Of a DNA stretch of 11,084 nt, positions 1-11,084 are shown in pieces; positions within the stretch are counted from its first letter, which is position 1, and the number at the start of each line of letters is the position of its first letter. The notes beneath the pieces are model-generated. The model saw nothing but the letters and a program-made list of their open reading frames with translations, made no database searches and was not told the origin of the DNA. Position numbers and translations under genes: made by a program. Source of the stretch: Candidatus Zixiibacteriota bacterium (lineage in GTDB: Bacteria > Zixibacteria > MSB-5A5 > JAABVY01 > JAHJOQ01); the NCBI GenBank assembly GCA_030631455.1, contig DAOVLC010000013.1:1-11084 (forward strand), in the 5' to 3' direction.

Positions 1-2231
1 GCATGGCCTACGAGCGGAATCATTATCTCCGGATATATTTTTTTGCTCTGCTTGGCCAATTCACAGGCGGCAGTCATTATCGCCCGCACCTGCATCTCGG
101 TGATTTCCGGATACGTGATACCCAAACGACACCCACGGTGGCCGAGCATTGGGTTCTGTTCATGAAGTTCTCTGATGCGTGCAGCAATCACCTGCTGTTT
201 CTTGATTTTTTCCTTGTCGGCTCCGCTCTCCTTAAGCTCCCTGATCTTCGCCTCCACTACGTCTAACCTCGGAAGGAATTCATGCAGAGGCGGATCAAGA
301 GTACGTATCGTCACGGGCAACCCAACCATAGCGTTGAAGATTCCCTTGAAATCGGCTTTCTGGATCGGGAGAAGCTTATCGAGCGCTGCCTGTCGATCCG
401 CCTGATTTTCCGCAAGGATCATCTTCTGCACGATCGGGAGGCGCTCTTCGGCGAAGAACATGTGTTCCGTGCGGCAGAGACCGGTACCCTCTGCTCCGAA
501 TTTCTTGGCAGTCTTGGAATCACTCGGCGTGTCCGAATTTGCGCGAACGCCGAGCCTCCTGTACGAATCTGCCCACTCCATAAACACACCGAATTCACCG
601 GAAAGCTCCGGCTCGATTGTTGCAACCTCGCCTTTCATGACCTCGCCCGTTGATCCGTTGAGAGTGATCGTATCTCCTTCTTTGAAGACCTTCGTACCAA
701 CTGCAAACTGCCTCTTGCTTTCGTAAACACGTACATCTTCGCACCCTGCAATACACGATATGCCCATACCGCGAGCTACGACCGCGGCATGAGACGTCAT
801 TCCACCGCGCGATGTCAGAATGCCCACCGCGGCTGCCATTCCATGAATATCATCGGGGTTGGTTTCGCTGCGAACAAGGATGACCTTTCCGCCCTCTGCG
901 GCCATCTCAACCGCCTGATCAGCCGTGAAGACTATCTTGCCGGAGACGGCTCCGGGCGACGCTGCGAGGCCGGTGGCCAGGACATCGTATTTTGCCGTCG
1001 GATTGATCCTGGGATGCAGCAACTGCTCAAGATCATCCGGCCGAATCCGCATCAACGCATCGTTAATAGAGATTAGCTTCTCATTGACCATATCGACGGC
1101 GATCTTGATCGCAGCAGGAGTAGTCCTCTTGCCAGATCGCGTCTGAAGCATATAGAGCTTGCCATCCTGGACGGTGAACTCGAAATCCTGCACATCCTTG
1201 TAGTGCTTCTCAAGGCGGTCCGTGATATCGCGCAATTGCTTGTATACCTTCGGCATTTCGGCCTTGAGTTTGGCGATCGGCTCCGGTGTCCGGATGCCGG
1301 CAACCACATCCTCGCCCTGAGCGTTGATTAGATACTCACCGAAGAATTCCTTCTCCCCGGTTGACGGGTTTCGTGTGAAGCCGACACCTGTACCCGAATT
1401 CTTGCCCAAGTTTCCGAATACCATTGCCTGGACATTAACTGCTGTGCCTGTATCCTCGACTATCTTGTCGATACGGCGATACTCAATTGCACGGGGGCTG
1501 TTCCAGGAACGGAAGACCGCATTTCGTGCCATTGTCAGTTGGTCAAAAGGATCATCAGGAAAATCCTCACCTGACCTCCTCTTGATGATCGATTTGAACT
1601 TCCTGACGATATCTCTGAAATCTTCTGCTGAAAGTGAGGAGTCTTTCCGAATCTGACGTTGCTTCTTTTTCCGAGTGATGACGTTCTCGAAGACATCCTT
1701 ATCTATGCCGAGCACGACATTGCCGAACATCTGTATAAACCGCCTGTATATATCGTAGGCAAATCGCTCATTTCCTGTCTTTTTGGCCATACCCTCGGTG
1801 GCTTTCTGATTCAGCCCAAGGTTCAGCACGGTATCCATCATTCCAGGCATTGAGATAGGAGCGCCTGACCTGACAGAAACAAGGAGCGGATTGTCGCTGC
1901 CCCCGAATTCGGTTCCCGTGAGTTTCTCAAGTTTGGATATGTTCCTCCGGGTTTGACGATCAAGATCGGGAGGATCGTTCATCTCGTTCTCGTAATATAG
2001 CCGACACGCCTCGCATGTTATGGTGAAACCTGGCGGCACAGGGACCTTCGAATTGGTCATCTCAGCTAAGCCTGCCCCTTTGCCCCCAAGCAGTTCCTTC
2101 ATGGTACCGGAGCCTTCAGCCTTTCCCCCGCCGAAATAATATACCAACTTTACCTTGTTAAGCTTTCCGACGGCCGAGGTGGCTTTGTCGGCTTTCTTCG
2201 CCCGCGAGCCTTCGTCGGTCTTTTTAGCCAT
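1..2231 (-). CDS. ppdK: Pyruvate, phosphate dikinase (C-terminus beyond window edge)
   Basis: This cytoplasmic enzyme interconverts ATP, phosphate and pyruvate with AMP, PPi and phosphoenolpyruvate. The frame is open for 743 codons with no frameshift and leaves the window at the left edge. The family is about 875 residues, so roughly 150 are missing, including the catalytic Cys and the C-terminal end of the PEP/pyruvate barrel. The N-terminal ATP-grasp part shows LLGGKGAGLAEM and SVRSGAPISMPGMMDT (Arg121). The swivelling domain has GGMTSHAAVVARGMG with phospho-carrier His481. The barrel has GLCRTEHMFF (Arg587) and TIRTLDPPLHEFLP (Arg643). From memory, these match His455, Arg561 and Arg617 of the Clostridium symbiosum enzyme, a constant shift of 26. 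That shift reflects a Lys/Ala-rich extension of about 26 residues before the usual start. The ATG at 2231 follows a GAGAGGA ribosome site at 6-base spacing. The gene has its own promoter candidate and is probably monocistronic or follows the small upstream gene. Identification is very secure. Confidence 0.97.
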   Translation of the reverse strand, partial: MAKKTDEGSRAKKADKATSAVGKLNKVKLVYYFGGGKAEGSGTMKELLGGKGAGLAEMTNSKVPVPPGFTITCEACRLYYENEMNDPPDLDRQTRRNISKLEKLTGTEFGGSDNPLLVSVRSGAPISMPGMMDTVLNLGLNQKATEGMAKKTGNERFAYDIYRRFIQMFGNVVLGIDKDVFENVITRKKKQRQIRKDSSLSAEDFRDIVRKFKSIIKRRSGEDFPDDPFDQLTMARNAVFRSWNSPRAIEYRRIDKIVEDTGTAVNVQAMVFGNLGKNSGTGVGFTRNPSTGEKEFFGEYLINAQGEDVVAGIRTPEPIAKLKAEMPKVYKQLRDITDRLEKHYKDVQDFEFTVQDGKLYMLQTRSGKRTTPAAIKIAVDMVNEKLISINDALMRIRPDDLEQLLHPRINPTAKYDVLATGLAASPGAVSGKIVFTADQAVEMAAEGGKVILVRSETNPDDIHGMAAAVGILTSRGGMTSHAAVVARGMGISCIAGCEDVRVYESKRQFAVGTKVFKEGDTITLNGSTGEVMKGEVATIEPELSGEFGVFMEWADSYRRLGVRANSDTPSDSKTAKKFGAEGTGLCRTEHMFFAEERLPIVQKMILAENQADRQAALDKLLPIQKADFKGIFNAMVGLPVTIRTLDPPLHEFLPRLDVVEAKIRELKESGADKEKIKKQQVIAARIRELHEQNPMLGHRGCRLGITYPEITEMQVRAIMTAACELAKQSKKIYPEIMIPLVGH

Positions 2232-2437: not shown

Positions 2438-2752
2438 TCACATAGTAAAATAGCGTTTGCCGGAGATTATCTTCTCCAGCATCTTCAGAGTCTTCTCAAC
2501 GGGGGCATGCATCAGATCATGCGTGTTGAAAGTTGCCTTTGCATCTTCCCTGACATACTCGACCCCGTTCGCGCCCTTCATCCGCTGTTTCTTCTTGTGA
2601 GTAAGGTTGTAGAGCCTTTGATACTCCCTCGCCTTTTCCCTGTGCGCAAGATAGTATCTTCTTTGATACTCGGATCTCGCCTTCTTCGCCTCTTCGGGTG
2701 TCATCTTTTTCTTGTTGCGGCGCTTAGGCTTGAAAGTCTGAACTTTTGCCAT
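2438..2752 (-). CDS. Small basic hypothetical protein with internal 15-residue repeat
   Basis: I do not recognise this 104-residue protein. It is strongly basic, with a Lys/Arg-rich N-terminus (KPKRRNKKK at residues 8-16). It has two consecutive 15-residue units, EYQRRYYLAHREKAR (28-42) and EYQRLYNLTHKKKQR (43-57), identical at 10 of 15 positions. A less charged tail follows, possibly helical near the end. There is no signal peptide or membrane helix, so it is probably cytoplasmic, and the charge suggests nucleic-acid binding, which is inference only. The ATG at 2752 follows an AAGGA ribosome site, and a good promoter lies about 100 bases further up (2854-2882). These support a real gene. It lies between the membrane operon and ppdK on the same strand, with about 200 bases before ppdK. 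Repeats of this Tyr/Arg type occur in short bacterial and phage proteins of unknown role. Confidence 0.7.
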   Translation of the reverse strand: MAKVQTFKPKRRNKKKMTPEEAKKARSEYQRRYYLAHREKAREYQRLYNLTHKKKQRMKGANGVEYVREDAKATFNTHDLMHAPVEKTLKMLEKIISGKRYFTM

Positions 2753-3041: not shown

Positions 3042-3689
3042 CTAACCAAAAATATAAGTGTACAGCATCACCCCCCACTCTTCAAGTGAAGCAATTCTTT
3101 GTACAAACAGCGATATTCTCGCCATGACCGTATAGCCAAAACTTGCTCCAAAACCGATCATCAGGATAAAGATCCCGATCTTTGCGGCTCCTCCAAACGC
3201 ACCCTTGTGCTCCTTGGAGAAGAAGAAGTATACTAACCCTGTTAATACACCTATCACGATTATGATGTTCCAGAAATGAGCCAGCGAGCCGAAACCGAGC
3301 GTCAGATCAAGCGTCGACGAGAGCTGCCTGTTCACATTGTTGTACATATACAACGGAATCGCAACACCTGACGTGCCGACGTAAAACGCAATCGGATATC
3401 GTGATAACCAGCCGAGCTTCTTGGAAAATCTGAACCACATCATCACACCAAGAACGGCAGGTATGTAGTACCAGTACTGACCATCGATTAGCCTGTCGAT
3501 CAGGACTGGTTTCAGGCTGGTCCACAGGAACAGTACCATGAAGTAACCTGCCGATACTCCGACCACAAGATGCTCAGCGATCTTATACAATGGATTGTCT
3601 TTATACAAGAAGGAGAAAGTCGCCAGCGTCAGAAAGGCCGCGAGAGTAGTCCAGAGTAAAGTTACAAGGTCCGGGCCGTTTTCCATCAT
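3042..3689 (-). CDS. Cassette D membrane protein, copy 1 (D1, six-helix)
   Basis: No family name is recognised. The 215-residue protein appears to have six hydrophobic segments. Three blocks are shared with D2 and D3. The first is SFLYKDNPLYK and the following Gly/Ser/Ala-rich helix (residues about 26-50). The second is a VLGVMM...GWLSR block before the fourth helix. The third is YFFFSKEHKGAFGG leading into FGASFGYTVMARISL in the last helices. The SKEHKG loop is basic, so it probably faces the cytoplasm. It is the last gene of the array: C1 ends at 3703, and the stop of C1 is fused to a long AGGAGGAGG ribosome site 6 bases before the ATG at 3689. A second ATG follows immediately (3686). No catalytic motif is evident. 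A scaffold, channel or transporter subunit is possible, and I infer only that it is part of a complex with A, B and C. Confidence 0.85.
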   Translation of the reverse strand: MMENGPDLVTLLWTTLAAFLTLATFSFLYKDNPLYKIAEHLVVGVSAGYFMVLFLWTSLKPVLIDRLIDGQYWYYIPAVLGVMMWFRFSKKLGWLSRYPIAFYVGTSGVAIPLYMYNNVNRQLSSTLDLTLGFGSLAHFWNIIIVIGVLTGLVYFFFSKEHKGAFGGAAKIGIFILMIGFGASFGYTVMARISLFVQRIASLEEWGVMLYTYIFG

Positions 3690-3695
3690 TCCAAA

Positions 3696-3704
3696 CCTCC
3701 TCCT
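3696..3704 (-). promoter_or_regulatory. Extended ribosome binding site of D1 overlapping the C1 stop
   Basis: AGGAGGAGG begins inside the TAG stop of C1 and ends 6 bases before the D1 ATG. The placement fixes the start of D1 and allows terminating ribosomes to reinitiate, coupling D1 translation to C1. Confidence 0.75.
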
Positions 3705-4554
3705 AATCCCCTATCTTCGTTTTCTTGCGAGACACGAAGTATCCGATATTACCAATGACTATGAAGAGCACTATGACAAGATGTGCGACAACCTGTGCAA
3801 GCATGCCGCGGTTGGCGTCGTGCTCTTGCTCCAGCAGTTTCTCATACTCGGCTGCGCCCTTCCAGCCTCCTATCAATCCGAAAAGGGCGTTGCCAAGATA
3901 CGGGTAGTAGTCTGGAGCCATGACTCCGGTCACTCCAAACGCAAGTGGCATGTTGTAGCGAGCGCTTCCGTAAACGAGCCACATGTCAGCGGCAGTGCCT
4001 GACTCAATGACTACGACGCATTCCAGATCATCATAGTTTCTTACACGGTGCATAATCGGGAGGTCGTCAAGCGGCGTGTCATAGTAGTCCCTCGGGAAGA
4101 ATATCCGGAAGTTCTCTCCCATTCCGAGTATTACGAAGGCCGGATACGGCCTGTATCCGAGGAAACAGTACTCCTCACCATATTCGACAGTCTTGCCGTA
4201 GATTCTCTCAGCTTCGCTCTTGACGTTTCTGAAGACTTCCTCGACCATACCGGCGCCGTACTGTGAAAGAGTCATACCTACGACCTTCACGTCCTGCCTG
4301 TAGCAATGCAGCAGTATCGCGCGTGACATCGGGTGAAGCTCCGCCAGTGAACTCGGATCGTAGTCGAGAGCCAGTAGTATCTTGTCGCCAGGATCAAGGC
4401 CCTCTATGAAATTGTAAATCGATTCGACCTCTTTCGTGGTATTCACCGGAACGCTGGTCACATTCCTGAGGAAGTATGCGAGTGAAACCACAAGAAACAG
4501 GAAAACGAATATCCAACGGCGATCGAGATTAGCCATTCTCACGAATATATTCAT
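3703..4554 (-). CDS. Cassette C protein, copy 1 (C1): alpha/beta domain between two membrane helices
   Basis: The 283-residue protein has a basic N-terminus (NLDRR), a membrane helix at about residues 14-30, a central soluble domain of about 210 residues, and a C-terminal helix ending in SRKKTKIGD. Positive charges at both ends put the termini in the cytoplasm, so the domain should face the periplasm. The domain alternates strand-like stretches (KILLALDYDP, VKVVGMT, LECVVVIESG) with helices, suggesting an alpha/beta fold, which is inference. Shared with C2 are a DYxP...E..PM segment, a DDxPxM segment, and a YPY...GLxGG(K/R)GAAE(Y/F)E segment (nt 3841-3879) that C3 also has. I do not recognise the family. 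An upstream ATG at 4581 is in frame, but 4554 is chosen because AGGAGG lies 8 bases before it, overlapping the B1 stop. This is the least conserved of the four families. Confidence 0.85.
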   Translation of the reverse strand: MNIFVRMANLDRRWIFVFLFLVVSLAYFLRNVTSVPVNTTKEVESIYNFIEGLDPGDKILLALDYDPSSLAELHPMSRAILLHCYRQDVKVVGMTLSQYGAGMVEEVFRNVKSEAERIYGKTVEYGEEYCFLGYRPYPAFVILGMGENFRIFFPRDYYDTPLDDLPIMHRVRNYDDLECVVVIESGTAADMWLVYGSARYNMPLAFGVTGVMAPDYYPYLGNALFGLIGGWKGAAEYEKLLEQEHDANRGMLAQVVAHLVIVLFIVIGNIGYFVSRKKTKIGD

Positions 4555-4562
4555 TCCGGTAT

Positions 4563-4568
4563 CCTCCT
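4563..4568 (-). promoter_or_regulatory. Ribosome binding site of C1 fused to the B1 stop codon
   Basis: AGGAGG uses the final A of the B1 TGA stop and lies 8 bases before the ATG at 4554. It decides the C1 start in favour of 4554 over the in-frame ATG at 4581 and repeats the stop/SD arrangement of the neighbouring junctions. Confidence 0.75.
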
Positions 4569-5191
4569 CAATCCCTGCCAAGGTAAGATCGTTCGATTCC
4601 GAGCATTACCTTCAACGCAGTGGCGACGGCCCCGAGGCCGACACCGATGATAATCGCACGTTTCGCAGCCAGGTTGGGAACTTTCAGTATCCACCCGGCT
4701 GCATCTGATACTATGGGGGAAAGAGGTCCCATCGGAACGAATCTCACCATTATAACAAGCGCTGCCAAAAGCAGCAGAGTCGCCATAACCGATCGGGCTC
4801 TGAAAGCGCGAAATGCAGCAGAAGCGATGAAAAACGCAAGCAGAGAGAACATGGTGGCCTGAATCGGCACCATAATATAGTAGAAGAAACTCCTGTACCA
4901 GTAATTCTCTATGCCGCCCGAGCCGGGGAAGAAGCCGAATATGAGCATCAGAATCAACCCACTGAGCGTGATGAAGCTGTAGCCGTAGTTCTCAGATTTC
5001 CGTTTTATCTTCTGCGTATGTACTTTCCAGAGAGACCACATGCCGAGCAGGAGAGAGAGGATGCCGATAATCATCGTCCAGTCGAGCAGGAACTGATAGA
5101 TCCAGTTCCATTCATCAAGCGGGACAAAGTTCTGGACAACCATGAAGAGGCTGACCACGAAAACCATCATCAAGGGAACCCGTCGTTTCAT
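4568..5191 (-). CDS. Cassette B membrane protein, copy 1 (B1, six-helix)
   Basis: No family is recognised. The 207-residue protein has six predicted hydrophobic helices: near the N-terminus, before and after a basic loop (KVHTQKIKRKSENYG), around PIQATMFSLLAFFIASAAF, at MATLLLLAALVIMV, and at the C-terminus. The basic loop should be cytoplasmic. Blocks shared with B2 are P(I/L)QAxMFxLLAFF followed by RAFRA, and near the end VPNLAxxRAIxIGxxLG then GxERxYLG. The start at 5191 is chosen over the in-frame ATG at 5227 because AGGAGG lies 8 bases before it and the upstream start would overlap A1. The start lies 14 bases after the A1 stop, and the C1 ribosome site overlaps its own stop, so translation is probably coupled. 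It is probably an integral subunit of the complex built with A, C and D; its activity is unknown. Confidence 0.85.
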   Translation of the reverse strand: MKRRVPLMMVFVVSLFMVVQNFVPLDEWNWIYQFLLDWTMIIGILSLLLGMWSLWKVHTQKIKRKSENYGYSFITLSGLILMLIFGFFPGSGGIENYWYRSFFYYIMVPIQATMFSLLAFFIASAAFRAFRARSVMATLLLLAALVIMVRFVPMGPLSPIVSDAAGWILKVPNLAAKRAIIIGVGLGAVATALKVMLGIERSYLGRD

Positions 5192-5199
5192 ACTACCAT

Positions 5200-5205
5200 C
5201 CTCCT
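5200..5205 (-). promoter_or_regulatory. Ribosome binding site of B1 abutting the A1 stop
   Basis: AGGAGG follows the TAG stop of A1 without a gap and lies 8 bases before the ATG at 5191. It fixes the B1 start 12 codons inside the longest open frame. Confidence 0.75.
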
Positions 5206-6429
5206 CTACAGATTCACCCTGATCCATTCACGAGGGGCATCCCAGCCCAGCAGTACGGCCAGGATGATGAGTACCATCAACACCATCAGAATCCCCTTTG
5301 CCCAGTCCTCAGCCTTGAGGGATCCAAGAAGAAGAGGATCCCGTCCCAGATACGCTGACGCAGCGTATAGCTCTTCACCGATCAGAGTATAATCGCATGC
5401 GACCACAAAGAAGGGCAACTGGCTGACCTGGTCTGTGCCGGCAATCTGAATCGCCCCTATCGCGTTGCCTGTCTCGGCGAGAAGCAGCGACTCGGCTGCG
5501 AAGTACCCCAGATAGAAGTTTGTGGCCGGGAGGTCTCGCACCATGATACCGTTGACACCGGCGACATAGGCGAACTGAGCGTTTGTCACGAAGAAAACAG
5601 AATCTTCGTCGTATTGGTCCGGTCTGCCCGCCTCGAGATAGGCTGATCTTACGATGTCCTGAGCGACACTCATGACAATCGGTTCGTAGCAAGGAACGAT
5701 CAGACTGGTCTGGTATTCCGCAACCTTCTTTGCAACGCGGCCGAGAATGGTAAACGATGCAATCGTAGCTATTTCAGCCGCTGTCCCGATGCCAAGAACA
5801 TAGAGTATCGGCTTGCCCATCTCGGTCGCACGCCCAATAGCTTCGTCAACGGCTTCTATTCCGGCAAGGGGACGAATATACAGTTCTTTGCCTCCTTTGG
5901 CCGATAGAACAAAATAGATCGTGAAGATACAAAAGAGTATGACCGCAATCAAAAGCGGGACTTTGCCTGTGTGGAACCACTGACCGTAAGTCTTATAAGG
6001 TCCGCCGACCTCCGATTCGGAAGAAACGCCTTCCGTGCCAACCGCTACGATCTTGTAATAGTAGCTCGAATCGTTCGGCATGTAGTTGGGGCTTTCTTCC
6101 TCCCTGTCTCCGATATCCAAGTATTCGTAGAAGTCGTTTGGAGACTCGCCTCGCAGAACAAACTCTCCGTCGGGAGAATAAGCTCGATACACTTCAAACC
6201 TTACCACCGAACTTGTGAATTCCTTCGGAAACTCCCACCTCACCGTGAGCTTATGCCCGCCATCATTGGGCATATCTTCAGCAACAGTAATCACGGCTTG
6301 TGGCGGTGGTTCAATTTGCATCTCCGCAAGCAGGCCGTCCTGCATCTCCTCCCCCTCCTGAGCAAGAAGAGGAGAGAAGATCAGTGGGAGGAACAGAAGA
6401 ACCGCTGCAAACCTCAGTTTATGCTTCAT
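5206..6429 (-). CDS. Cassette A protein, copy 1 (A1): signal peptide-FN3-TM-DUF6754-like domain-TM
   Basis: The 407-residue protein starts with a signal peptide (about 1-23, ending SPLLA before QEGEE). A fibronectin type III-like domain spans about 43-142, with the usual Trp (VRWEF), a VYRAYSPDGEF strand-loop and the YYYKIVAV strand. A membrane helix (about 157-175) is followed by the basic GGKELYIR, which places the next domain in the cytoplasm. That domain (about 181-378) has the blocks EAVDEAIGRATEMG, FTILGR, EAGRPD, NGIMVR, ETGNAIGAIQIAGT, QLPFF and CDYTLIGEELYAASAYL. From memory it resembles the uncharacterised DUF6754 family; a profile search is needed. A last helix is at about 379-396. 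The start at 6429 is chosen because AGAGG lies 7 bases before it; an in-frame GTG at 6435 is too close to that site. It opens the second complete cassette, 37 bases after D2. By a hand alignment the cytoplasmic domain is more than half identical to that of A2. Its function is unknown. Confidence 0.88.
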   Translation of the reverse strand: MKHKLRFAAVLLFLPLIFSPLLAQEGEEMQDGLLAEMQIEPPPQAVITVAEDMPNDGGHKLTVRWEFPKEFTSSVVRFEVYRAYSPDGEFVLRGESPNDFYEYLDIGDREEESPNYMPNDSSYYYKIVAVGTEGVSSESEVGGPYKTYGQWFHTGKVPLLIAVILFCIFTIYFVLSAKGGKELYIRPLAGIEAVDEAIGRATEMGKPILYVLGIGTAAEIATIASFTILGRVAKKVAEYQTSLIVPCYEPIVMSVAQDIVRSAYLEAGRPDQYDEDSVFFVTNAQFAYVAGVNGIMVRDLPATNFYLGYFAAESLLLAETGNAIGAIQIAGTDQVSQLPFFVVACDYTLIGEELYAASAYLGRDPLLLGSLKAEDWAKGILMVLMVLIILAVLLGWDAPREWIRVNL

Positions 6430-6466
6430 ATTCACACCTCTTATGGAAAAGCCTCATGGGAAACTC

Positions 6467-7210
6467 TCATCCTATCATACCGAGCCAGCTATCGAGGAGA
6501 TACTGCATCCGCCCCACCAGCAACGAGATTCTGGCCATAACAGTGTAGCCGAATGATGCACCGAATGTGATCATTAGCACGATTACGCCGGCGCGAGCCC
6601 CGGCACCGAATGCGCCTTTGTGCTCCTTGGAAAAGAAGAAGTAGATCAGACCGCACATCACTCCGATGAAAATAACGATGTTCGAAATCGTCTCGCCCAG
6701 GCTGAATCCGGCTGAATTCGTGACGTACAGCGGCATCGCCGTACTGCTTATCTGCTGAATGAAATCTGATCTGAGATATCGAACAAGGTTCAGACCTGCG
6801 GTTGTACCTACGACAAAGGCCAGAGCCCATCTCGAAATCCATCCAGCCTTCGACGAAAGACGCATCAACAGCATGATGCCGAGTATAAGCGGGATGAGCA
6901 TGAAAGGATCCGACGGATTATCTTTGAGTGCAGGAATTACCGGTCCCACCATCGGCGGATAGAGCCTCCCGAACAAGTTCGGAACCATGGTTCCCCAGAA
7001 CCCCATGCACATCCAGTAAGCTGCACTTACTCCCACGAACAGATGCTCTGCGAATTTATAGTACGGATTATCGTCATACAAGAACGAAAATATCGCAAGA
7101 GTAAGGAAGGCACCAAAAGTGACAAAGAAGCCCTTCAGGGCTACACTTATAGCGAAAAGAATTACGACAACACCGAAGAAAATATATGTTGCGAGCTGTC
7201 TACGCGTCAT
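6467..7210 (-). CDS. Cassette D membrane protein, copy 2 (D2, seven-helix)
   Basis: This 247-residue paralogue of D1 and D3 has an extra hydrophobic segment at the N-terminus (about residues 8-26) that the others lack, so seven helices are likely. If the shared part keeps its orientation, the N-terminus lies on the opposite side of the membrane. It carries FLYDDNPYYKFAEH, a GWISR block, YFFFSKEHKGAFG (conserved codons 6614-6643) and FGASFGYTVMARISL (6536-6565). A longer loop after the third helix contains NPSDPFM. The ATG at 7210 overlaps the TGA of C2 as ATGA, and GGGAGGGG precedes it, so it is translationally coupled to C2. It closes the middle cassette, and A1 follows after 37 bases. Function is unknown. 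Confidence 0.86.
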   Translation of the reverse strand: MTRRQLATYIFFGVVVILFAISVALKGFFVTFGAFLTLAIFSFLYDDNPYYKFAEHLFVGVSAAYWMCMGFWGTMVPNLFGRLYPPMVGPVIPALKDNPSDPFMLIPLILGIMLLMRLSSKAGWISRWALAFVVGTTAGLNLVRYLRSDFIQQISSTAMPLYVTNSAGFSLGETISNIVIFIGVMCGLIYFFFSKEHKGAFGAGARAGVIVLMITFGASFGYTVMARISLLVGRMQYLLDSWLGMIG

Positions 7211-8109
7211 CGAACCCCTCCCAGGCCTTCCTTAGTCATGCCGCGTGCCCTGAGTATGAAATAGAGAACGTTTCCAAAGACGATGAAGAAGATTATTACT
7301 ATATGCGCCACCGTCTGGGATACCATGAGGCTCATCCCGGCCATCGGGTAGTCTTCGTATTTCGGATATGCGATTATCAGAGCGTTCTCATATTCCGCGG
7401 CTCCCTTGGCTCCGCCGAGAAGTCCCACCAACTGCGACGGATAGTACGGATACAGATTCGGAGCGCCGACAGCAGTGCATCCTCCGCCGATAGGTATGTT
7501 CCCCGGGTCACCGGCAAACTGAATCCACTCTTTGATTCCCGGAAAACCTCCGCCGAATGACACTATAAGGTCGAAGTTCCGGAGGCTTGTGATGTTTTCC
7601 ATCATTGGAAAATCGTCAATAGCGATATTGTTAGCATCGGTAGAGTACATCGTCTTGAAATCGACCAGTATAAGGCGAATCAACCCCTGATTTCCCGCCT
7701 TGTATCCAAGATTGATAAAATCAACACCGTATTCCAAATCCGGGAAATCTGGTCTCAGTACTCCTTCGATCGTCTCCCCGGTTAGATTGTGTCCAGTAGC
7801 CCACACGGCCATCATATACATCTTGCACTTTCTCTCAGCGCAGTGTCTAACCATCGCGTCGACCATCGGCTGTATCTCAGGAGCTGTCGTAGGGCCGTAG
7901 TCATAAGATAGGAGTACTCTGGATCCTTCCGGCAACCCCTCTACATTATCAAACATCGCCTGAACAATCGGAGTCGTCTTCTCCTTCAACTGCGCACCAA
8001 TCAGAAGCGGAACAATCACGGCAACCGCAATGAATGCAAATATTATCCTCCGGTCGATATACTGCAGCCGTTCAACCAGGCTCTGTTTTTTCATCGCACC
8101 ATTAGTCAT
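7207..8109 (-). CDS. Cassette C protein, copy 2 (C2): alpha/beta domain between two membrane helices
   Basis: This 300-residue paralogue of C1 has the same plan: a short basic N-terminus with IDRR, a membrane helix (about 22-41), a periplasm-facing domain of about 220 residues, and a C-terminal helix ending in a basic tail (LRARGMTKEG). Shared elements are DYGPTTAPEIQPM, LGYK, DDFPMM followed by a strand ending SFGGGFPG, and YPYYPSQLVGLLGG leading to KGAAEYE (7387-7425). SFGGGFPG corresponds to NFSAGYPG in C3, and both are followed by a WIQ segment that C1 has lost. The open frame extends to 8250, but that would overlap B2 by over 130 bases. I chose 8109, 8 bases after the B2 stop; the ribosome site there (GAGTG) is weak, and ATG 8094 is an alternative. 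No catalytic motif is recognised. Confidence 0.83.
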   Translation of the reverse strand: MTNGAMKKQSLVERLQYIDRRIIFAFIAVAVIVPLLIGAQLKEKTTPIVQAMFDNVEGLPEGSRVLLSYDYGPTTAPEIQPMVDAMVRHCAERKCKMYMMAVWATGHNLTGETIEGVLRPDFPDLEYGVDFINLGYKAGNQGLIRLILVDFKTMYSTDANNIAIDDFPMMENITSLRNFDLIVSFGGGFPGIKEWIQFAGDPGNIPIGGGCTAVGAPNLYPYYPSQLVGLLGGAKGAAEYENALIIAYPKYEDYPMAGMSLMVSQTVAHIVIIFFIVFGNVLYFILRARGMTKEGLGGVR

Positions 8110-8117
8110 ATCAACAC

Positions 8118-8801
8118 TCAATCGCTGTCCCCACCAAGATATGTTCTCTCGACACCCAAAATAAGTCGGAGCGACATCGAGATCACTCCAAGAGCAATAC
8201 CTATCATTATAGCCCGTTGCCCGGCGAGATTCGGCACATCCATGATCCAATCGGTAAGATTCGGAAGCTGCAAGAAGGACATGTCACCTGTCAGCCCGGA
8301 CGTTAGCCAGAGACCGAAAGGTGTCCGTCCCAAAAGGACTATGAATGCCGCTATCAGTAGTATCGTTGCTTCCGTGGTCTTGGCTCTGAAAGCCCTGTAT
8401 GACGCTGAGCCAACAAAGAAGGCAAGCAGAGCGAACATCGATGCCTGCAAGGGCGTAAATATCTGCATATACATGTCATTGAACAGCGAACCCACCGCGG
8501 CGACGTCGCCCTGGATACCACCCGGATTACCGATCTTGAACAACCCGGCGGCTAACATGACAATAAAACCACCCAATGTCACTATCGAAAACGGCCAGTC
8601 TTTCTTCTTCTTTTGGACTTTCGTGAGGTGAATCCTGAAGAGATTCCCACCACCCAGAATGAAGGCGAATACGGCGATAATATCAAAATATAGTGCGAAG
8701 TCGTCACCCAAATTCCCGAACGGCTTGTGCGGGATAAAATCAGCAACAATCAGCACCCAACCGACAACTACCGTAATCAATATTGGAAAAGTTCTACGCA
8801 T
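8118..8801 (-). CDS. Cassette B membrane protein, copy 2 (B2, six-helix)
   Basis: This 227-residue paralogue of B1 has the same six-helix pattern and a basic cytoplasmic loop (TKVQKKKKDW) between helices 2 and 3. Conserved blocks are PLQASMFALLAFFVGSASYRAFRA (about residues 118-141) and, near the end, VPNLAGQRAIMIGIALG and GVERTYLG. It is longer than B1 mainly through an insertion after the fifth helix (about residues 165-185, containing SGLTGDMSF), probably a periplasmic loop. The ATG at 8801 lies 6 bases after the A2 stop with no strong ribosome site, so it may rely on coupling to A2. This contrasts with the AGGAGG-led B1. Function is unknown. Confidence 0.85.
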   Translation of the reverse strand: MRRTFPILITVVVGWVLIVADFIPHKPFGNLGDDFALYFDIIAVFAFILGGGNLFRIHLTKVQKKKKDWPFSIVTLGGFIVMLAAGLFKIGNPGGIQGDVAAVGSLFNDMYMQIFTPLQASMFALLAFFVGSASYRAFRAKTTEATILLIAAFIVLLGRTPFGLWLTSGLTGDMSFLQLPNLTDWIMDVPNLAGQRAIMIGIALGVISMSLRLILGVERTYLGGDSD

Positions 8802-8807
8802 AATCGA

Positions 8808-10079
8808 TCAACTCAACGAAAACCATCCCTTGAATGTGTTTGCCAGAGAGAGAATGCTCTCTGATTCCGTAATCGCCGCAACCGAAAACAGGATGCAAAG
8901 GACCAATATAACACTCATTGCGATTATCTTGCCAACATCCTGACCCTTGAGAGCGCCAAGCTGTCTCGGCTCATCCGACAGGTACGCTGATGCCGCAAAC
9001 AACTCCTCACCAATGAGCGTGTAGTCGCATGCGGCAATAAAGAACGGCAACTGAGACGGCATCGCGGTACCAGCTATCTGTATCGCCCCGATGGAATTGC
9101 CGGTCTCCGCCATGATGAGCGACTCAGCAAAGAATGCCCCAAGATAGAAGCAGGTAGCAGGTTTCTCGCGAACCATGATACCATCAACCGCGGCCACATA
9201 TCCAAACTGCTCGTCGGTCAGATAGTAGACCATGTCATCGGAGTAAGCGTCAGGCCTGCCCGCTGCAACATAGGCCTGCTTGATTGTTTCGCGGGCAGTA
9301 GCCATAACGATCGAACGGGAAACAGGCATATTGATCTTCGTGTCATAATCCGCGATAGTACGCGCAATGCGCCCTAGAATCGTCAGCCCCGCAACGGTTT
9401 GGACGTTATCCAGATCCTGAATGCCCGGTATGAACAGTATGGGGCGACCCATCTCAGTCGCACGACCAATCGCCTCATCGACTGCCTCGAGTCCCGCTAT
9501 CTTCCGAAGGAACAGCTTTTTCCCCTTCTGAGCGTGATATATGAAAAAGATGACAGAGAAGCATATAATAAATCCAATTATAAGGGTATCGATATCCCGC
9601 GTGTTAAGCCACTGCGCAGAGGACCTTGCCCCCGCTGAAACCCCTGACCGGGAAACGCCGGTCGCCGACACGGTTGCCAAGTAGTAGTAATAAGTCTGAC
9701 CATCGACCGTCGTGGCATCCTCAAATGAAGTTCTTCCCCTGGAGGCAAATCCGACAGACTCAAACAAGCCATCTGGTGACTCCGAGCGGAAGATCTCATA
9801 ACCGGTGATGTTATCAGCACCCATGCCATCGTCCGGCGATCTAAACCACTTGACACTAATAGCACCGCCAGCATCGCCCCGCGAATCCTGAACCACGTTG
9901 AGTTGAGCGGCTCTCGGAGAAGCTGCAGACTCCACAGCCTCGCTCACGAATACTGAATCGACTGTTGCAGTATCAGGCGACTCTTGGGCGAACGCACTCG
10001 GACCAAGCAGCAGTGTCAGAGCAATGATACAAGTCGGAACTGATTTACGTAAACCACTAATCACACTATAACCCAACAA
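8808..10079 (-). CDS. Cassette A protein, copy 2 (A2): signal peptide-FN3-TM-DUF6754-like domain-TM
   Basis: This paralogue of A1 is 423 residues from the TTG at 10079. The signal peptide ends in PSAFA before QESP. A Ser/Ala/Val-rich linker leads to an FN3-like domain (about 55-153) with VKWF, GYEIFRSESPDGLFE and TYYYYLATV. A membrane helix (about 163-182) and the basic QKGKKLFLRK follow, then the cytoplasmic DUF6754-like domain (about 187-385) with EAVDEAIGRATEMG (9447-9488), LTILGR, AAGRPD, DGIMVR, ETGNSIGAIQIAGT, QLPFF and CDYTLIGEELFAASAYL, and a last helix. There is no ATG near the front: the start must be TTG (10079 or 10076) or GTG (10064). The GTG lies just after the D3 stop and would still leave a good signal peptide, so the start is uncertain by 15 bases. 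No strong ribosome site is seen. Family naming rests on memory. Confidence 0.86.
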   Translation of the reverse strand: MLGYSVISGLRKSVPTCIIALTLLLGPSAFAQESPDTATVDSVFVSEAVESAASPRAAQLNVVQDSRGDAGGAISVKWFRSPDDGMGADNITGYEIFRSESPDGLFESVGFASRGRTSFEDATTVDGQTYYYYLATVSATGVSRSGVSAGARSSAQWLNTRDIDTLIIGFIICFSVIFFIYHAQKGKKLFLRKIAGLEAVDEAIGRATEMGRPILFIPGIQDLDNVQTVAGLTILGRIARTIADYDTKINMPVSRSIVMATARETIKQAYVAAGRPDAYSDDMVYYLTDEQFGYVAAVDGIMVREKPATCFYLGAFFAESLIMAETGNSIGAIQIAGTAMPSQLPFFIAACDYTLIGEELFAASAYLSDEPRQLGALKGQDVGKIIAMSVILVLCILFSVAAITESESILSLANTFKGWFSLS

Positions 10080-10767
10080 AATCCAGCGTCACCATTACCC
10101 AATCGTTAACAAGAAAGTCGAGCCGACCTATGAAGAGCGACATTCGGCTCATCACTGTGTAGCCGAATGATGCGCCAAAAGTTATCATGATAAACCAGGT
10201 TCCGACTTTCGCGGTGCCGCCGAACAATCCCTTGTGTTCCTTCGAGAAGAAGAAATAAACCAGACCGGTGAAAGTCCCCACGAGAATGACGACATTCCCG
10301 AGCGCCTCTTCCCACGACTGCACAGGCGGTATGCCGCCTGCATCCGAGATTGGCCCGAAAAGCGGCACGATTGTATTGCGTATCTGTTTGACTCCATTCG
10401 AAACGAGAAAGTTGATGAACTGAAGGCCGGCAGTTGCGCCGACGATCACAGCAATCGGCCATCTCGATAACCATCCGACGCCGGGAACCAGCCTAAGCAG
10501 CATCATAACACCAAGTACAGCGGCCACCAAATACACGAGGTTGTACTGGATTTCGCCATGACCTAAGGCTACCAGAGCAGGCCAGAGATTGTCGATGAGT
10601 TTAGCGACCAGATTCTGCCACCACATTGACGCAAACCAGTAGCCCGCGGAGATACCGATAAAAATAGCTTCACATATCTTGTACCAGGGATTGTCCTTAT
10701 ACAGGAACGACATAATCCCAAGAGTCAGGAATGCTCCGATCCAAAGACCTATCATCTCATTTAGCAT
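10066..10767 (-). CDS. Cassette D membrane protein, copy 3 (D3, six-helix)
   Basis: This 233-residue paralogue of D1 and D2 lacks the extra first helix of D2. It has SFLYKDNPWYKICE, a VLGVMM...GWLSR block, YFFFSKEHKGLFGG (conserved codons 10228-10257) and FGASFGYTVMSRMSL (10150-10179). A Trp-rich stretch (SMWWQNL) and a longer loop containing GPISDAGG distinguish it. The ATG at 10767 follows AAGGA at 5-base spacing and lies 7 bases after the C3 stop. Its TAG overlaps the non-ATG start region of A2. It closes a third cassette whose A and B genes should lie beyond the right edge. Function is unknown. Confidence 0.86.
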   Translation of the reverse strand: MLNEMIGLWIGAFLTLGIMSFLYKDNPWYKICEAIFIGISAGYWFASMWWQNLVAKLIDNLWPALVALGHGEIQYNLVYLVAAVLGVMMLLRLVPGVGWLSRWPIAVIVGATAGLQFINFLVSNGVKQIRNTIVPLFGPISDAGGIPPVQSWEEALGNVVILVGTFTGLVYFFFSKEHKGLFGGTAKVGTWFIMITFGASFGYTVMSRMSLFIGRLDFLVNDWVMVTLDFVGL

Positions 10768-10774
10768 GCCGTCC

Positions 10775-11084
10775 TTACTCTTTCTTCCTGCCGGTAACGA
10801 AGTAGGCGATATTTCCTACTATGATAAACAGCATCACTATGCCGTGTGCAAAAGTCTGTGACAGCATGAACGTCGTAGCCTTCGCGCGAAAACCTGTCAA
10901 TTTCTCGAACTCCGCTGCTCCACGCATTCCGCCGAGCAGCCCTGTAAGCTGACCGGCTCGCAGGAAAGGATACACAAACGGCGCCTGAACAGCAGTGTTG
11001 CCAGCACCGAGTTTGACTCCGAATCTGTCCACGGCATTCTGTATCCACTCCACCGTACCGGGGTAACCTGCCGAGAAGTTCAGC
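10775..11084 (-). CDS. Cassette C protein, copy 3 (C3), N-terminus beyond window edge
   Basis: Only the last 102 codons are present; the frame is open to the right edge, so the true start is outside. The visible part begins LNFSAGYPGTVEWIQNA, matching the SFGGGFPGIKEWIQ region of C2. It continues to YPFLRAGQLTGLLGG and RGAAEFE (10904-10942), then a C-terminal membrane helix (AHGIVMLFIIVGNIAYFV) and the basic tail TGRKKE. This is the same ending as C1 and C2, so the assignment to family C is secure. An internal GTG at 11053 is not a credible start because it would cut through the conserved segment. The preceding genes should be B3 and A3. Confidence 0.85.
   Translation of the reverse strand, partial: LNFSAGYPGTVEWIQNAVDRFGVKLGAGNTAVQAPFVYPFLRAGQLTGLLGGMRGAAEFEKLTGFRAKATTFMLSQTFAHGIVMLFIIVGNIAYFVTGRKKE

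Follow-up and report, generated by a model that had tools for sequence, protein, structure and literature searches.

The array of membrane-protein genes in this stretch of a Zixibacteria genome raises the question of whether its repeated products form one complex, and of whether the successive copies of the set differ in specificity or assemble together. The window, which is the whole 11,084-nucleotide stretch analysed and the entire contig C252, contains ten genes of four families (A, B, C and D), all on the minus strand at the coordinates originally predicted. Read from right to left, they run C1(end)-B1-A2-D2-C2-B2-A3-D3-C3-B3, so that A-D-C-B is complete twice, and the cassette before these contributes B1 and the final 102 codons of C1 (Table 1). 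Neighbouring genes almost abut along this array. BLASTP comparisons within the window relate A2 to A3 (43% identity, E = 1e-104), C2 to C3 (31%, E = 9e-43), D2 to D3 (35%, E = 2e-35), each pair among B1, B2 and B3 (46-49%, E = 1e-52 or better), and the end of C1 to C2 and C3 (42-44%, E = 4e-24 and 4e-21). These ten genes, with paralogues 31-49% identical, bear out the original prediction that four membrane-protein families recur here in fixed order.

Table 1. Genes of the A-D-C-B array in the window, in order of transcription.
Feature	Coordinates	Strand	Basis	Start
C1, 3' part, class 1 cassette; 5' part on contig C290 (L006)	10775..11084	-	ORF open at contig end; 42-44% identity to C2/C3; 152-base overlap with L006 at 94%	
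B1, polytopic membrane protein, class 1	10066..10767	-	BLASTP and hydropathy	
A2: signal sequence, FN3, TM, DUF6754 (residues 154-403), TM; class 2	8808..10079	-	PF20539 410 bits; FN3 by PDB profile search; class by tree	
D2, six-TM protein, class 2	8118..8801	-	BLASTP, hydropathy	
C2: TM, Rossmann-like alpha/beta domain, TM; class 2	7207..8109	-	AlphaFold pLDDT 89.1; 1024 homologues at E <=1e-3	ATG chosen; ORF extends to TTG at 8250
B2, polytopic membrane protein, class 2	6467..7210	-	4-base overlap with C2 stop	
A3: signal sequence, FN3-like, TM, DUF6754; class 3	5206..6429	-	PF20539 391 bits; class by tree	alternative start possible: GTG at 6435
D3, six-TM protein, class 3	4568..5191	-	BLASTP, hydropathy	conserved start chosen; ORF extends to 5227
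C3, two-TM alpha/beta protein, class 3	3703..4557	-	BLASTP, hydropathy	ORF extends to TTG at 4581
B3, polytopic membrane protein, class 3, final gene of tandem array	3042..3689	-	BLASTP, hydropathy	

The contig end truncates the copy number. A second contig, C290, carries M-K-A1-D1-C1, where M and K are two genes discussed below, and it overlaps the right end of the window. Since this overlap spans just 152 bases at 94% identity, the join is probable rather than exact, and it is backed by another genome of the same family, in which M-K-(A-D-C-B)x3 is unbroken (L050). The "at least two and a half" copies first counted are present in the window, and the full tandem array of this genome probably comprises three cassettes, of which the window holds the second and third.

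The A-D-C-B block is strongly conserved beyond this genome. A occurs in 132 of 132 Zixibacteria genomes, most commonly in five copies, and D-C-B follows it at 101 of the 106 testable places, a count that excludes five A genes cut by contig edges (L006, L007, L041 and the second A of both L040 and L117). Gaps between cassette genes are 50 bases or less in 284 of 303 cases. In ten genomes assembled into 1-7 contigs and searched whole, C has B immediately downstream in 46 of 46 cases and A upstream in 43 of 46, and 47 of 50 B matches have C upstream; B, C and D are thus not usually found apart from A. The numbers of A, B and C genes are equal in five of these ten genomes and within one of each other in the remaining five. 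The exceptions to the block are few: L007 and L076 carry A by itself, and L112 keeps only K-A. A class 1 A lying about 580 kb from D-C-B in genome G027 (L069, L058) was considered as a natural split, but the D gene there lacks its first half. The cassette itself is therefore broken there, through rearrangement or misassembly, and the case has no bearing on function in trans. Outside Zixibacteria, A occurs in 45 of 47 genomes of a second phylum (that of G132) and 21 of 79 genomes of a third (that of G133). Plasmid records contain no match to C.

Separate trees of A, D, C and B recover the same five classes of cassette, with 4, 5, 5 and 5 changes respectively (minimum 4). The class labels were taken from the A tree, so the independent test is that of the D, C and B trees; 15 of 100 rows were unclassed, and 8 of 71 loci were left out of the trees (L040-L043, L062, L085, L115 and L117, not all of them edge-cut). 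This agreement indicates that the block was duplicated as a unit, long ago; the retention of gene order despite strong divergence that was first noted is confirmed and is old.

How the copies relate to one another is partly reflected in their arrangement. All 11 three-copy loci that were typed run 1-2-3, the sole four-copy locus (L056) runs 1-2-3-3, and the A tree places classes 1 and 2 near each other. These observations would fit cassettes 1, 2 and 3 assembling into one hetero-oligomeric machine, with adjacency keeping the stoichiometry. However, six two-copy loci that were typed (L044, L060, L061, L063, L065 and L066) hold classes 1 and 3, genome G115 has the class set 133EF, classes E and F are solitary and lie elsewhere on the chromosome, and in two other phyla A is single-copy in many genomes. 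Joint assembly is unlikely. Of the two options originally left open, different specificity or joint assembly, the single A in those phyla and the two solitary classes somewhat favour separate versions.

The proteins themselves are only partly recognizable. A2 and A3 are full members of DUF6754 (PF20539), with scores far above the Pfam gathering cut-off of 27 bits. An FN3 domain N-terminal to DUF6754 has a profile match to titin FN3 chains (E = 2.6e-19), and AlphaFold models a beta-domain with pLDDT >90 across most of residues 71-150, so the initial description of A as FN3/DUF6754-like holds. The Pfam fn3 model matches only 8 of 72 A proteins at E <=1, and A proteins of less than 310 aa, too short for FN3, make up 6 of the 10 in class E and 9 of the 10 in class F. 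Over residues 191-370 the ten-residue pLDDT means of the A model range from 36 to 82, and the model was therefore not used as a fold-search query. Weak single matches of A to eIF-2B/MtnA and ETF families do not recur (IF-2B in one and ETF in two of 72 members), and these candidates were rejected.

Hydropathy finds a signal sequence and two segments in A2, one additional weak segment in A3, two segments in C and six in D, which for C agrees with the helix count first proposed. B has four to five segments above threshold, and its predicted six are an alignment reading. A fold search with C yields generic Rossmann matches only, among the matches listed, and profile searches of the PDB give a chance-level relative for C and no relative for B or D. 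The distinctness of the families was checked for two pairs: profile comparison finds nothing shared between A and C beyond one TM helix, despite similar-looking last motifs that had suggested a distant relationship, and no relation between B and D.

With two polytopic subunits, each cassette could be an ATP-assisted small-molecule transporter whose class sets the substrate, and a solute-binding-protein gene of one family lies near 9 of 10 class E loci (SBP_bac_1 in L068). These class E neighbours, however, are divergently transcribed and have their own permeases, and B, C and D match no transporter family over its cut-off, in addition to their lack of informative PDB relatives. To our knowledge it would also be unusual for an ASKHA ATPase, the predicted power source described next, to energize a transporter. 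We consider this reading improbable.

The composition seen in the window is incomplete, for four further genes occur at the operon head. The order P-S-M-K-A-D-C-B recurs in loci of three phyla, where M is a MutL/GlmL-type ASKHA protein, K probably combines barrel-sandwich and KOW-like domains, and P and S are small genes. In the genome of the window (G000), M is present only as a C-terminal fragment of 107 aa without a Pfam match; two M proteins of relatives score 423 and 432 bits against PF13941 (MutL; cut-off 27). What we take to be the nucleotide-site motifs of M are invariant in 14 of 14 rows. Among NCBIfam models M comes closest to GlmL and ornithine-degradation Or-4 (NF040745, NF040744), and it stays below both equivalog cut-offs (231.5 bits against 475 and 208.5 against 600). 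Two K proteins match no Pfam family over cut-off, including RnfC_N or similar; among 120 listed K homologues, precomputed matches include PF13375 in one and PF25984 in 14, and weak profile matches point to RNAP beta' and SPT5 (E = 0.07-0.28). M and K also exist as fusion proteins of about 930 aa. Homology searches scored at least 8000 homologues for A and at least 8000 for K.

K accompanies A closely. It was found in 123 of 132 Zixibacteria genomes and not in the other nine; among the best genomes the count is 77 of 78. In the second phylum, 43 of 47 genomes have K, both genomes that lack A also lack K, and two of the 45 A-bearing genomes gave no K match. Of the 79 genomes of the third, 21 have A, 20 have K and 18 have both (Fisher p = 8e-13, relatedness ignored); three carry A but yield no K match, and two yield a K match but no A, in one case a 28-residue fragment at a contig edge. 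In some Zixibacteria loci M-K is separate from, or divergent to, the cassettes.

The identity of M also raises the possibility that it acts, in the manner of GlmL, on a B12 enzyme or other cofactor carrier, with A-D-C-B as the membrane protein serviced. The membership of M in PF13941, its nearest models and one M-K fusion near a biotin-carboxylase-type gene (L138) are compatible with this role. On the other hand, M is far under the GlmL and Or-4 cut-offs, it adjoins K and membrane genes, and no B12-binding or mutase gene was recognized among the recurring neighbour families, which are partly annotated. A cofactor-handling function appears distinctly unlikely.

The full set, A-D-C-B with M, K, P and S, matches no described system within the databases and literature searched. 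The original prediction had reached this conclusion for the four membrane genes, without the genes at the head. The PF20539 entry describes one domain of unknown function and is silent on D, C, B, M and K. Titles and abstract openings disclose no paper on DUF6754, PF20539 or PF13941, and none of relevance with Zixibacteria. Among ASKHA-served assemblies, MreB-RodZ-MreC-MreD and PilM-PilN-PilO-PilP each combine an ASKHA protein inside, bitopic proteins with outside domains and a polytopic core. Their likeness to A-D-C-B is one of working principle only: their composition differs, M is of the MutL type, and A-D have no Pfam match to the MreC/MreD/RodZ or PilN/PilO/PilP families. PADLOC anti-phage models return nothing for the eight proteins at E <=0.01 save a weak Cmr5 match of S (0.0039), which we take as chance. 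No function was found for any of the membrane parts A, B, C and D. The novelty lies in the composition, and B, D and the inside domain of A could still prove to be kin to something known.

Tol-like genes lie directly downstream of K in several genomes. Genes with the sizes and order of TolQ-TolR-TolA-TolB occupy this position in L129, L131, L134, L144 and L146 (identified by Pfam in L129), and eight loci share a TolQ-like gene family (identified in L059). Unlike these neighbours, A, B, C and D have no match in the Tol-Pal families, and B and D have no PF01618 (MotA_ExbB) match at E <=1, whereas the neighbouring TolQ does. The Tol-like neighbourhood speaks for the envelope complex proposed below, but could reflect plain gene-order conservation.

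The block, its order, its five classes and its link to M-K constitute one inherited unit. Gene linkage alone can mirror a shared pathway, and the argument for a complex is a genomic one, but near-equal numbers of A, B and C and five classes inherited as units exceed usual pathway linkage and make it very improbable that this is an operon of convenience for four separate membrane proteins of one pathway with no stable complex. We give about an even chance to A-D-C-B being an inner-membrane complex driven by M-K, with a single M-K pair serving the roughly five old classes of Zixibacteria. The four membrane proteins would be its subunits, with B and D as the membrane core. A positive-inside reading of the sequences would place the FN3 domain of A and the Rossmann-like domain of C outside and the DUF6754 domain inside. 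The soluble M-K pair probably docks on this inside domain, and its binding and hydrolysis of ATP probably drives the complex, with P and S as putative accessory small proteins. B, D and the inside domain of A offer no usable fold, which leaves an ATP drive through A as guesswork. The one role of the MutL family known to us is with B12 mutases rather than membranes, which also counts against the model. For a coevolution analysis, 246 of 253 cassettes were retained, equivalent to 179 effective sequences at 80%. The control, mean-field couplings of C alone, gave 3 strand-to-strand pairs in the top 60, where about 1.5 are expected by chance, and this failure is why we claim no inter-protein contact.

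If the complex forms, the classes in Zixibacteria would probably serve different cell-envelope clients. With slightly less confidence, the set may represent an envelope machine of an undescribed class in which one M-K pair drives parallel copies of A-D-C-B, each with its own client, and which extends throughout one phylum, nearly throughout a second and into part of a third. Since every genome searched in one phylum carries the set, mostly as several ancient versions, it is likely central to those cells. P-S-M-K-A-D-C-B, recurring across three phyla, provides a defined eight-gene set to test. It also associates the MutL/GlmL family with membrane proteins, a setting of which we know no earlier description.

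The window spans the full length of contig C252 (11,084 bases). Its array occupies the minus strand from position 11084 down to 3042 and reads end of C1, B1, A2, D2, C2, B2, A3, D3, C3, B3, where the letters denote the four membrane-protein genes and the numbers their cassette class. Both A proteins are members of the DUF6754 family (PF20539), with scores of 410 and 391 bits versus a cut-off of 27, and B, C and D match no family over cut-off in Pfam or NCBIfam. Paralogues within the window are 31-49% identical (E-values from 1e-104 to 4e-21), which is far beyond chance. Profile comparison finds nothing in common between A and C except one transmembrane helix, and no kinship between B and D. 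The draft assembly of this genome (2.16 Mb in 427 contigs, 79% complete) has five DUF6754 places in total. Another of its contigs (C290, locus L006) carries M(end)-K-A-D-C(start), in which M is a MutL/GlmL-type ASKHA protein and K a putative barrel-sandwich plus KOW-like protein. This contig is probably the left half of the array, and the join is only probable because the 152-base overlap of its end with the window's right end is inexact (94% identity). The array is unbroken in a genome of the same family (L050), where it reads M-K-A-D-C-B-A-D-C-B-A-D-C-B. Of the remaining two DUF6754 places, L008 holds a complete cassette of its own and L007 only an A.

Two further genes follow the array (see the table). 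The small basic protein has no Pfam match over cut-off, and a gene resembling it occurs in seven other Zixibacteria loci; the resemblance is judged by eye, as an antisense ORF masked the window's copy in the family grouping. Several relatives have genes related to the window's pyruvate phosphate dikinase near the array; the grouped family also includes PTS enzyme I genes.

Features in the window and in related loci
Feature	Location	Strand	Remark
Pyruvate phosphate dikinase (PPDK) gene, cut by contig end	window 3-2231	-	comes after small ORF 2438-2752
104-aa basic protein, repeated YQRRYY/YQRLYN-type motifs	window 2438-2752	-	between array and PPDK gene
M-K fusion	L135 2267-5068	-	
M-K fusion	L136 3965-6808	-	
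M-K fusion	L137 2563-5358	+	
M-K fusion, cut by contig end	L138 4435-7041	-	
Doubled class F A (A-A-D-C-B)	L067 5542-7318	+	duplication of A alone
A-D only	L085		exception to A-D-C-B
K-A only	L112		exception to A-D-C-B
Lone A, class F, without FN3	L007 7652-8518	+	downstream of phosphoglucose/phosphomannose isomerase gene
Lone A, class F, without FN3	L076 4606-5472	+	

The A-D-C-B order is strongly maintained. Our survey covered 71 loci including the window, all picked via A, with 111 A genes, 106 of which have room downstream; D, C and B follow in the same order and on the same strand in 101 of these 106, and 284 of 303 gaps between cassette genes are at most 50 bases. Four of the five exceptions are L067, L076, L085 and L112. 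The fifth is a class 1 cassette in the single-contig genome G027 (loci L069 and L058) that is split inside D, with A at 804 kb and a D without its first half, plus C and B, at 1388 kb; this break is either a rearrangement or a misassembly. The lone A of L007, which the contig-edge rule places outside the 106, comes on top of these five. In L007 and L076, both from the window's own family, A is all that is left of the class F cassette. Because loci picked via A are biased, C and B were also searched for independently of A in 10 Zixibacteria genomes of 1-7 contigs (estimated 80-99% complete). Here B adjoins C in 46 of 46 cases and A lies upstream of C in 43 of 46, and 3 of 50 B matches are without C. 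Five of the genomes have as many A as C and B genes (5/5/5 in G025, G027, G114 and G115; 2/2/2 in G010), and in the other five the numbers are off by one.

A tree of 100 DUF6754 domains resolves tandem positions 1, 2 and 3 as three classes, and from this typing it follows that the window holds classes 2 and 3 plus the end of class 1. Mapping the labels from the A tree onto the trees of D, C and B gives 5 changes per tree versus a minimum of 4 (shuffles average about 46). Cassettes were therefore copied whole and have not come apart since, with one exception at most. Class 1 accounts for two changes in all trees and class 2 for two in those of D, C and B; the support for class 3 in the B tree is only 56. 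All 11 typed three-copy loci have the order 1-2-3. More than one locus was typed in each of 11 genomes; seven of these have exactly the set 123EF, and the others are 123EFF, 133EF, 13E and 1233, the last with one further copy (L085) left untyped. The fourth class, E (10 loci), adjoins ABC-transporter genes; 9 of its loci include a solute-binding protein and 7 a DUF72-family gene. Neighbors of the fifth class, F, include nucleotidyltransferase and SAM synthetase (L067) and phosphoglucose/phosphomannose isomerase (L007). Class 2 takes in members from two other phyla, represented by G132 and G133, where a quick method gives supports of 80-99; these duplications may therefore predate Zixibacteria.

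DUF6754 occurs in 132 of 132 genomes searched from Zixibacteria, the phylum to which the window belongs. Exactly five matches were counted by eye in 66 of them (range 1 to 6), numbers that drafts may distort by splitting or losing matches. It is also found in 45 of 47 genomes from the phylum of G132 (Eisenbacteria by one record title), in 21 of a sample of 79 from that of G133 (Planctomycetota by one record title), and in none of 14 well-known control genomes. K has a similar reach: it is present, mostly as a single copy, in 123 of the 132 Zixibacteria genomes; of the 78 with a completeness of 90% or more, 77 have it. It occurs in 43 of 47 genomes from the phylum of G132, where both A-less genomes and two A-bearing ones are without it. 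In the phylum of G133, 18 genomes have A and K, 3 only A, 2 only K (one a 28-residue fragment) and 56 neither (Fisher 8e-13, kinship among genomes ignored). Judged by eye, 28 of the 43 K-bearing genomes in the phylum of G132 and 11 of the 20 in that of G133 have K immediately upstream of an A.

M (about 615 aa) belongs to the MutL/GlmL family (PF13941, 423 bits) and falls below the NCBIfam GlmL and Or-4 equivalog cut-offs. Its nucleotide-site motifs, which we take to be those of ASKHA proteins, are invariant across 14 sequences from several phyla, which share 63-83% identity with the first sequence of the alignment. No Pfam family scores over cut-off for K (about 375 aa); among 120 homologues listed, precomputed matches are to RnfC_N (PF13375) in 1 and to PF25984, a barrel-sandwich family, in 14. 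The end of K resembles a KOW domain, with a weak SPT5 match. Some listed homologues carry the name NusG from their source. The operon often begins with two small genes, P and S. The full order P-S-M-K-A-D-C-B occurs in L113, L116, L118, L121, L127 and L128, and also in L052 and L055 with a gap after S (L052 has another between M and K). Other Zixibacteria loci have M and K in divergent orientation to the cassettes, or the two genes lie at another site. M and K are further tied by their fusion into a single protein of about 930 aa in four loci (L135-L138). Genomes with the fusion also bear a separate K, and the neighborhood of the L138 fusion includes a CGGC protein as well as a biotin-carboxylase-type gene.

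Directly downstream of K in L129, L131, L134, L144 and L146 are genes with the size and order of TolQ-TolR-TolA-TolB, identified by Pfam in L129 among these five. A TolQ-like family is found in eight loci, with its identity checked in L059. In the same five loci, the Tol-like genes are immediately preceded by M, a protein of about 260 aa that belongs to no family and starts like a signal sequence, and K.

We do not assign the A-D-C-B set to any known system, because we found no paper containing DUF6754, PF20539 or PF13941, profile searches gave no PDB relative for B or D and only chance-level matches for C, and PADLOC has no fitting family; membership in DUF6754, FN3 and MutL concerns single domains only. 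A positive-inside reading would place FN3 of A outside and DUF6754 inside, and the Rossmann-like domain of C (AlphaFold pLDDT 89) outside; the other two proteins, B and D, are polytopic. The control failed in a coevolution test of subunit contacts, which consequently proves nothing. In the best-supported model, A-D-C-B would be an inner-membrane complex that is worked from inside by an M-K ATPase-adaptor. We infer physical assembly of the four proteins, ATP drive and client specificity. One M-K pair could be common to several cassette classes, which fits the single copy of K versus several of A. The predicted outside domains and the Tol-like genes downstream of K suggest that A-D-C-B has a role in the envelope.
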